A DNA stretch of 30,007 bases from a virus: positions 1-30,007 of IMG/VR virus record IMGVR_UViG_3300046010_000922; one strand, given 5' to 3'. Shown here piece after piece: positions 1,829 through 1,898 of this stretch. The translations under genes were made by a program, and so were the position numbers. The number at the start of each line of letters is the position of its first letter. Within the stretch, counting starts at the first letter, position 1. The notes under the pieces are model-generated. The model was not told the DNA's origin. It made no database searches and was given only the letters and a program-made list of their open reading frames with translations.

Positions 1829-1898
1829 TCTCCTGTCAGTTAGATACATAACCCCTTTATGGAGGACAGGAGAGTACTCGACATATCGGGGTTATGTA
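1829..1898 (-). promoter_or_regulatory. Interlocked inverted repeats in the nuclease leader; candidate SD-sequestering pseudoknot
   Basis: Two perfect inverted repeats interlock: TACATAACCCC (1845-1855) with GGGGTTATGTA (1888-1898), 11 bases, and TCTCCTGTC (1829-1837) with GACAGGAGA (1865-1873), 9 bases. In the minus-strand RNA the order is stem 1 5', stem 2 5', stem 1 3', stem 2 3', followed by CAACU and the AUG at 1823. The last strand, GACAGGAGA, is the Shine-Dalgarno site of the nuclease gene. Loops are about 14, 9 and 7 bases. If both stems form, this is an H-type pseudoknot hiding the ribosome site. If they compete, it is a two-state switch. Confidence 0.6.

Follow-up and report, generated by a model that had tools for sequence, protein, structure and literature searches.

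A conserved structured leader RNA as a candidate pseudoknot gate on translation of a phage DNA-metabolism operon

Organization of the operon and its leader

The DNA analysed here (the window) comprises the 30,007 bases of a virus record. Among named genomes, those nearest to it are OX376640 and OX376641, the Planktophila phages LanE43AprE7 and LanE43AprF5, for which 'Ca. Planktophila' was the isolation host (PMC10202952). Going by this kinship, the window's virus probably infects very common freshwater bacteria. Viral contigs, searched by protein and by motif, yielded many further relatives.

An early DNA-metabolism operon lies on the minus strand, to which all positions of the window given below refer. 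A putative sigma-70-type promoter, TTGACA-18 nt-TATAAT (1994-1965), assigned by consensus match (12/12), places the predicted transcript start near 1958, and is followed by a tight 5' hairpin, AGGGGC-GAA-GCCCCT, with A+T-rich flanks (1951-1937). Hairpins of the GGGGC-GAA-GCCCC type near the predicted transcript start varied in sequence among the relatives (AAGACCCCGAAGGGGTCTT, GGCGCGAAGCGCC) and were retained with or without the element described below. The first gene (1823-1635) encodes the N-terminal part of a Cas4-like exonuclease (PF12705, phrog_69/1870), and the C-terminal part is encoded in the +1 frame (1642-1040; PF12705, phrog_1870, E=6e-41) with an overlap of 8 nt; the matches to PF12705 and phrog_1870 place the exonuclease in the PD-(D/E)XK family. 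The two ORFs are of 62 and 200 aa, and the nuclease was split in this way in the relatives inspected. Frameshifting was rejected as the reason for the split, since one relative (L069) carries an extra gene between the two halves and a second ORF with its own Shine-Dalgarno (SD) sequence, which argues for two polypeptides. Next in the operon are a gp49-like gene (1043-660; PF25690, phrog_364) and a DnaB-like helicase gene (586-2; phrog_243, E=2e-55), the latter cut by the window end. The helicase gene is preceded by the SD sequence GACAGGAG (598-591, box 2) and by a second hairpin (646-604; z = -5.3) with GGGGAAG in its apical loop. Nearly all of 40 relatives had GGGGA in this loop on diverse stems, and the hairpin is probably another structured element, with a conserved loop and stems that differ among relatives.

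The leader of the first gene, from 1898 to 1821, reads TACATAACCCC-GA-TATG-TC-GAG-TAC-TCTCCTGTC-CTC-CATA-AA-GGGGTTATGTA-TCTAACT-GACAGGAGA-CAACT-ATG. As the first-pass annotation had noted, two perfect repeats interlock here and the last strand is the SD itself, which we could read directly on the minus strand. Stem S1 pairs TACATAACCCC (1898-1888) with GGGGTTATGTA (1855-1845) over 11 bp, and stem S2 pairs TCTCCTGTC (1873-1865) with the SD GACAGGAGA (1837-1829, box 1) over 9 bp, 5 nt ahead of the ATG at 1823-1821. Above its 11 bp, S1 continues past a GA/AA mismatch into TATG/CATA and, beyond a bulge of 2 nt (TC), into GAG/CUC (5' side 1885-1877, 3' side with CTC and CATA 1864-1858), and ends in a 12-nt apical loop, UACUCUCCUGUC (1876-1865), which contains the anti-SD strand of S2; the full length of S1 was 17-22 bp in most copies. 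A 7-nt linker, L3 (TCTAACT, 1844-1838), connects S1 to the SD. Folding of 1900-1843 gave z = -6.3.

An interlocked 11+9 arrangement was obtained in 0/2000 dinucleotide-preserving shuffles of the 85-nt leader, the largest sum being 16; the first-pass annotation had judged the 11-base repeat unlikely by chance. The leader scored highest of all sites on either strand of the window. Apart from two weak sites, the other high-scoring segments overlapped the leader or the A+T-rich sequence flanking it, and no unrelated location approached its score. The A+T-rich leader does hold several other hairpins, as would suit a chance arrangement or an ordinary stabilising hairpin with no regulatory role, but the outcome of the shuffles and the covariation across 73 copies, described next, make this reading highly improbable.

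Conservation and covariation of the leader element

The element was kept in >150 related records, with exactly one copy per record in 14/14 matching records. Both isolated phages, LanE43AprE7 and LanE43AprF5, carry it, there with an 18-bp lower stem. We aligned 73 distinct copies without use of structure (alignment A1). S1 with its upper stem (5' side in columns 36-38 and 42-44) was paired in 96.2% of cells, as compared to 87.5% in shuffles and 42-55% with slid partners; across tests, the values for S1 were 95-96%, 86-88% and 39-55%, respectively. Double-sided changes were seen at 12 pairs, and 182 cells were changed on both sides as against 49 in shuffles, with 0/500 shuffles reaching either value. 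Within the 11-bp lower stem (93.7% of cells paired), 8/11 pairs showed double-sided changes, and about 33 independent double-sided compensations were counted on a nuclease tree as against 1-9 with a slid partner, both tree and parsimony counts being approximate. RNAalifold, to which the structure was not supplied, recovered S1 and extended it upward to GAG/CUC. These closing pairs were paired in 73/73 copies, with two compensatory exceptions, C-G (L043) and A-U (L024). The covariation shows S1 to be a real RNA structure, and it is near certain that the leader element is a structured RNA. That sequence changes while pairing stays fits RNA, and a DNA operator was rejected on this ground.

The evidence for S2 was of another kind. 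Pairing of S2 was kept in 97% of cells across the 73 copies. At its seven inner pairs, the changes on the SD side kept the pair through G-U wobble in 12/12 events, whereas at the two end pairs 12 change events broke pairing. No double-sided change in S2 was found among the 73 copies, so that S2 is supported by exact complementarity and pair-preserving drift rather than by compensation. Compensatory changes in relatives, which the first-pass annotation had proposed to look for, were thus abundant in S1 and absent as double-sided changes from S2. The apical loop was identical in 60/73 copies, an invariance inflated in part by the way the copies were chosen, many of them having been found via the exact loop motif.

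Other readings of the element were considered and rejected. A leader peptide is contradicted by the lack of a conserved start codon or frame, by 1-nt indels near the loop, such as GTTAGAG and GAGCAT, and by third codon positions that are as invariant as the others. A kissing dimer through the palindrome GAGTACTC was discarded as the palindrome is broken in the GAGTCATC clade. A host-derived element was also rejected: the motif had 20 exact matches among 84,980 genomes of bacteria and archaea, none with hairpin plus box together.

Among the loci from nuclease-based searches, the core CTCCTGTCCT was exact in 152 and absent from 111, and no intermediate forms were found. The latter 111 loci belong to two sister clades that have the same operon and promoter-proximal hairpin without the element, and with a different SD. 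The first-pass annotation would have counted loss of both pairings from phages that keep the gene against its proposal; the pairings are indeed missing from these clades, and the SD box is missing with them. This joint absence points to a module that was gained or lost, and not to drift. In another observation, several leaders of the L249 clade (L297, L310, L326, L341) had a TATACT-like hexamer only about 8 nt before the nuclease ATG, a position suggestive of a leaderless start; a repeat of the GTAGGCA/TGCCTAC type lay further upstream.

Coexistence of the two helices

Nested folding favoured S1 over the S2 hairpin in 68/73 copies, by a median of 5.4 kcal/mol, and left the SD open; masking of the SD would therefore need the pseudoknot. 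Its geometry was evaluated with a simple model of A-form helices, for which the known distance across the deep groove served as calibration. L2 is 0 nt, L1 has 3 nt to cross the deep groove, and 17-22 bp must be bridged by L3, the length of which is mostly 7-9 nt; the 7 nt of the window are near the geometric minimum for bridging S1. Loop lengths permit both helices in most copies if 1-3 basal pairs of S1 are opened, at a median cost of 2.7 kcal/mol in this model; one copy (L077) has a linker of 4 nt, for which about 4-5 pairs must open. Formation of S2 contributes -14.0 kcal/mol, leaving a net -11.4 kcal/mol before any pseudoknot penalty. Pseudoknot penalties are commonly several kcal/mol, and the knot should thus be marginally stable, which would suit a gate. 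The pseudoknot is feasible but taut, and the earlier picture of both stems in one knot has to be qualified, since the short linker usually demands the opening of 1-3 basal S1 pairs.

The same tight geometry raises the reading that the stems are mutually exclusive, forming a bistable switch between a full S1 hairpin with the SD open and a nested S2 hairpin with the SD closed. S1 would form first during transcription and a factor would later shift the balance. The bistable mRNA of lambda cIII is a phage example of alternative folding at a start site; the leader would resemble it in this respect, and is not known to be related to it in sequence or gene. In most copies the linker cannot accommodate the two helices at full length, which fits such a switch, as do the S1 and S2 states of the window copy, only about 1 kcal/mol apart in the nested model. 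Over all the copies, however, the median preference for S1 means that the S2 hairpin would hardly ever form, and the GAG/CUC cap lies directly beside the S2 strand (L2 = 0), which fits coaxial stacking rather than exclusion. We regard such a switch as rather unlikely.

A proposed translational gate and its relation to known systems

Our preferred reading, to which we assign a probability of roughly 0.6, is that the leader pseudoknot gates translation of the DNA-metabolism operon. As predicted from the sequence, the leader would fold into the long S1 hairpin, the 12-nt apical loop of which would pair with the SD of the first gene, giving an H-type pseudoknot in which the SD is hidden. The loop likely masks the SD, and pairing of the SD would block 30S binding. 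Given the marginal stability and the taut linker, the pseudoknot might be opened by ribosomes, by a trans-acting factor or by other phage mRNAs that bear the GACAGGAG box, and its opening would switch on the operon, with the effect carried to the next genes through starts that overlap or lie adjacent. That the gate is a regulated one is plausible. The masking pseudoknot of the first-pass annotation is retained here to the extent that a conserved leader, compensated in S1, is able to mask the SD, with the changes in S2 limited to one-sided wobbles.

The annotation had further taken the nuclease to be the gated gene. The operon is indeed that of the nuclease, but in many relatives a small ORF (e.g. 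MFNKEL..., MLKKTN..., MFFWKK...) is inserted before the nuclease, behind the same element and SD. Since the element persists through replacement of the first gene, it is the operon that would be gated, through whichever gene comes first, and not the nuclease as such. The element is found upstream of whichever gene is first, behind a consensus promoter and in single copy, in keeping with a gate, and the variation of the first gene argues against autoregulation by its product.

The earlier statement that the sequence belongs to no known riboswitch class agrees with Rfam 15, which gave no hit at gathering score and only weak sub-threshold hits in the leader. The fold proposed here resembles in outline the preQ1, SAM-II and SAM/SAH riboswitches, H-type pseudoknots whose last strand is or overlaps the SD. 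Unlike them, the element has a far longer S1 (17-22 bp) and a loop strand that S2 would take up entirely; it shows no apparent ligand pocket and fits none of the Rfam models.

Among phages, the leader of T4 gene 32 contains a pseudoknot 67 nt upstream of the start codon which nucleates gp32 binding; a 2010 review considered it perhaps the sole viral pseudoknot known to serve in translation autoregulation (PMC3014915). Both cases combine a leader pseudoknot, a phage DNA-metabolism gene and translational control, the pseudoknot and the control being proposed here; the T4 knot excludes the SD, whereas in the present leader the SD would form one of the strands. Binding of gp32 to a pseudoknot in its own leader (PMC3014915) is also a precedent for a protein operator, in which a phage or host protein would recognise the invariant loop, the box or both, with loop-SD pairing being part of the site or incidental. 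Conservation of the loop beyond what pairing alone requires is consistent with this. The exact 9-nt complementarity and its drift in pair-preserving ways only speak against it, as does the absence of RegA- or RegB-like genes from six genomes, and we consider a protein operator very unlikely. GGAG-type SDs of early genes are the targets of T4 RegB (PMC3014915), and here also a set of early genes is marked by one SD followed by A-rich sequence, with RNA structure that would protect the site; the two systems differ in the lack of a RegB-like gene, and regulation by RegB or RegA was rejected, there being no homologue of either in the six genomes.

The element is a new structured leader RNA with >150 copies, and its presence in isolated phages of a very abundant freshwater bacterial order makes it testable in culture.

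A start-site box complementary to the loop

A box at the starts of several other phage genes, (ACTTAA)GACAGGAGAA (consensus ACTTAAGACAGGAGAA), is complementary to the apical loop, a feature overlooked by the first-pass annotation. Besides the helicase gene, GACAGGAG serves as SD of many small genes, which form a cluster of their own outside the window; among box-led genes tested, most had no family and one was SprT-like. GAC preceded AGGAG at 101/336 AGGAG-type starts in 15 element-bearing genomes, as compared to 2/67 in four genomes without the element. Element-bearing genomes had 1-13 exact boxes each, or 2-13 including wobble forms, with 8-13 in many; all box counts are weakened by the shared ancestry of the genomes. 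Single-base variants of the box at starts mostly still paired with the loop (GACGGGAG, 13 starts; GATAGGAG, 8 starts) or affected end pairs only, and GAAAGGAG, a better match to 16S rRNA, was found at 0 starts in the 15 element-bearing genomes. Extended pairing of GACAGGAG with the 16S tail is interrupted at its C, a base that does pair with the G of the loop, and this counts in favour of the proposed gate.

The loop, presented by the leader itself or by an RNA excised from the leader, might instead act in trans as an antisense hairpin that pairs with GACAGGAG boxes of other mRNAs, a single RNA thereby controlling a set of early genes. Boxes at 8-13 starts in many element-bearing genomes, a near-invariant loop, box deviations by loop-compatible wobbles, the strong consensus promoter and stable 5' hairpins are all in line with this. 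Evidence for a separate small RNA is lacking, however, the loop never changed to match box drift to GACGGGAG (G012), and the element persists in two genomes (G006, G016) with just 2 boxes each. An antisense role of this kind is unlikely, and the persistence of the element in the latter genomes makes a role in cis seem primary.

The cis-acting gate may be combined with the shared box in a riboregulator, in which the anti-box loop senses box-bearing early mRNA by competition or silences it in trans; we hold this to be unlikely. Were it true, translation of about ten early genes would be linked to the DNA-metabolism operon. Coordination with the box genes, by competition or in trans, is an attractive hypothesis of limited support.

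A comparable box is known from cluster K mycobacteriophages, in which the start-associated sequence (SAS/ESAS), an AGGAG-containing box at the SD, occurs in 11-19 copies before a subset of non-structural genes; about half of the copies have an upstream inverted repeat, which, according to the authors, does not support RNA pairing, and their function is unexplained (PMC3203893). Both are AGGAG boxes repeated a few nt before starts of non-structural genes in actinobacterial phages (here GACAGGAG, 101 starts, 15 genomes). The boxes themselves differ (GGGATAGGAGCCC as against (ACTTAA)GACAGGAGAA), and in the present phages a covarying hairpin presents the complement of the box, whereas the right half of TM4, with 10 SAS sites, had no box complement on the sense strand and no matching loop. 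For the start-associated sequences of actinobacterial phages, so far unexplained, the matching box offers a concrete hypothesis, namely that boxes of this kind may be targeted by RNA pairing.

Type II hammerhead ribozymes (Rfam RF02276, above the gathering score) were detected in the early small-gene cluster of three relatives, L279 (18967-18903, minus strand), L288 (1289-1353, plus strand) and L458 (19262-19324, plus strand), a few nt upstream of GACAGGAG boxes, and more hammerhead-like sequences lay ahead of other boxes. Self-cleavage of the hammerheads may yield defined 5' ends for box-led messages. Several boxes in L284 and L279 were preceded by folds of a three-way-junction or tRNA-like type (GCCCCAA...UUGGGGC, with GGGUAUUCAAGAUACC as an arm), a hairpin lying between fold and box.
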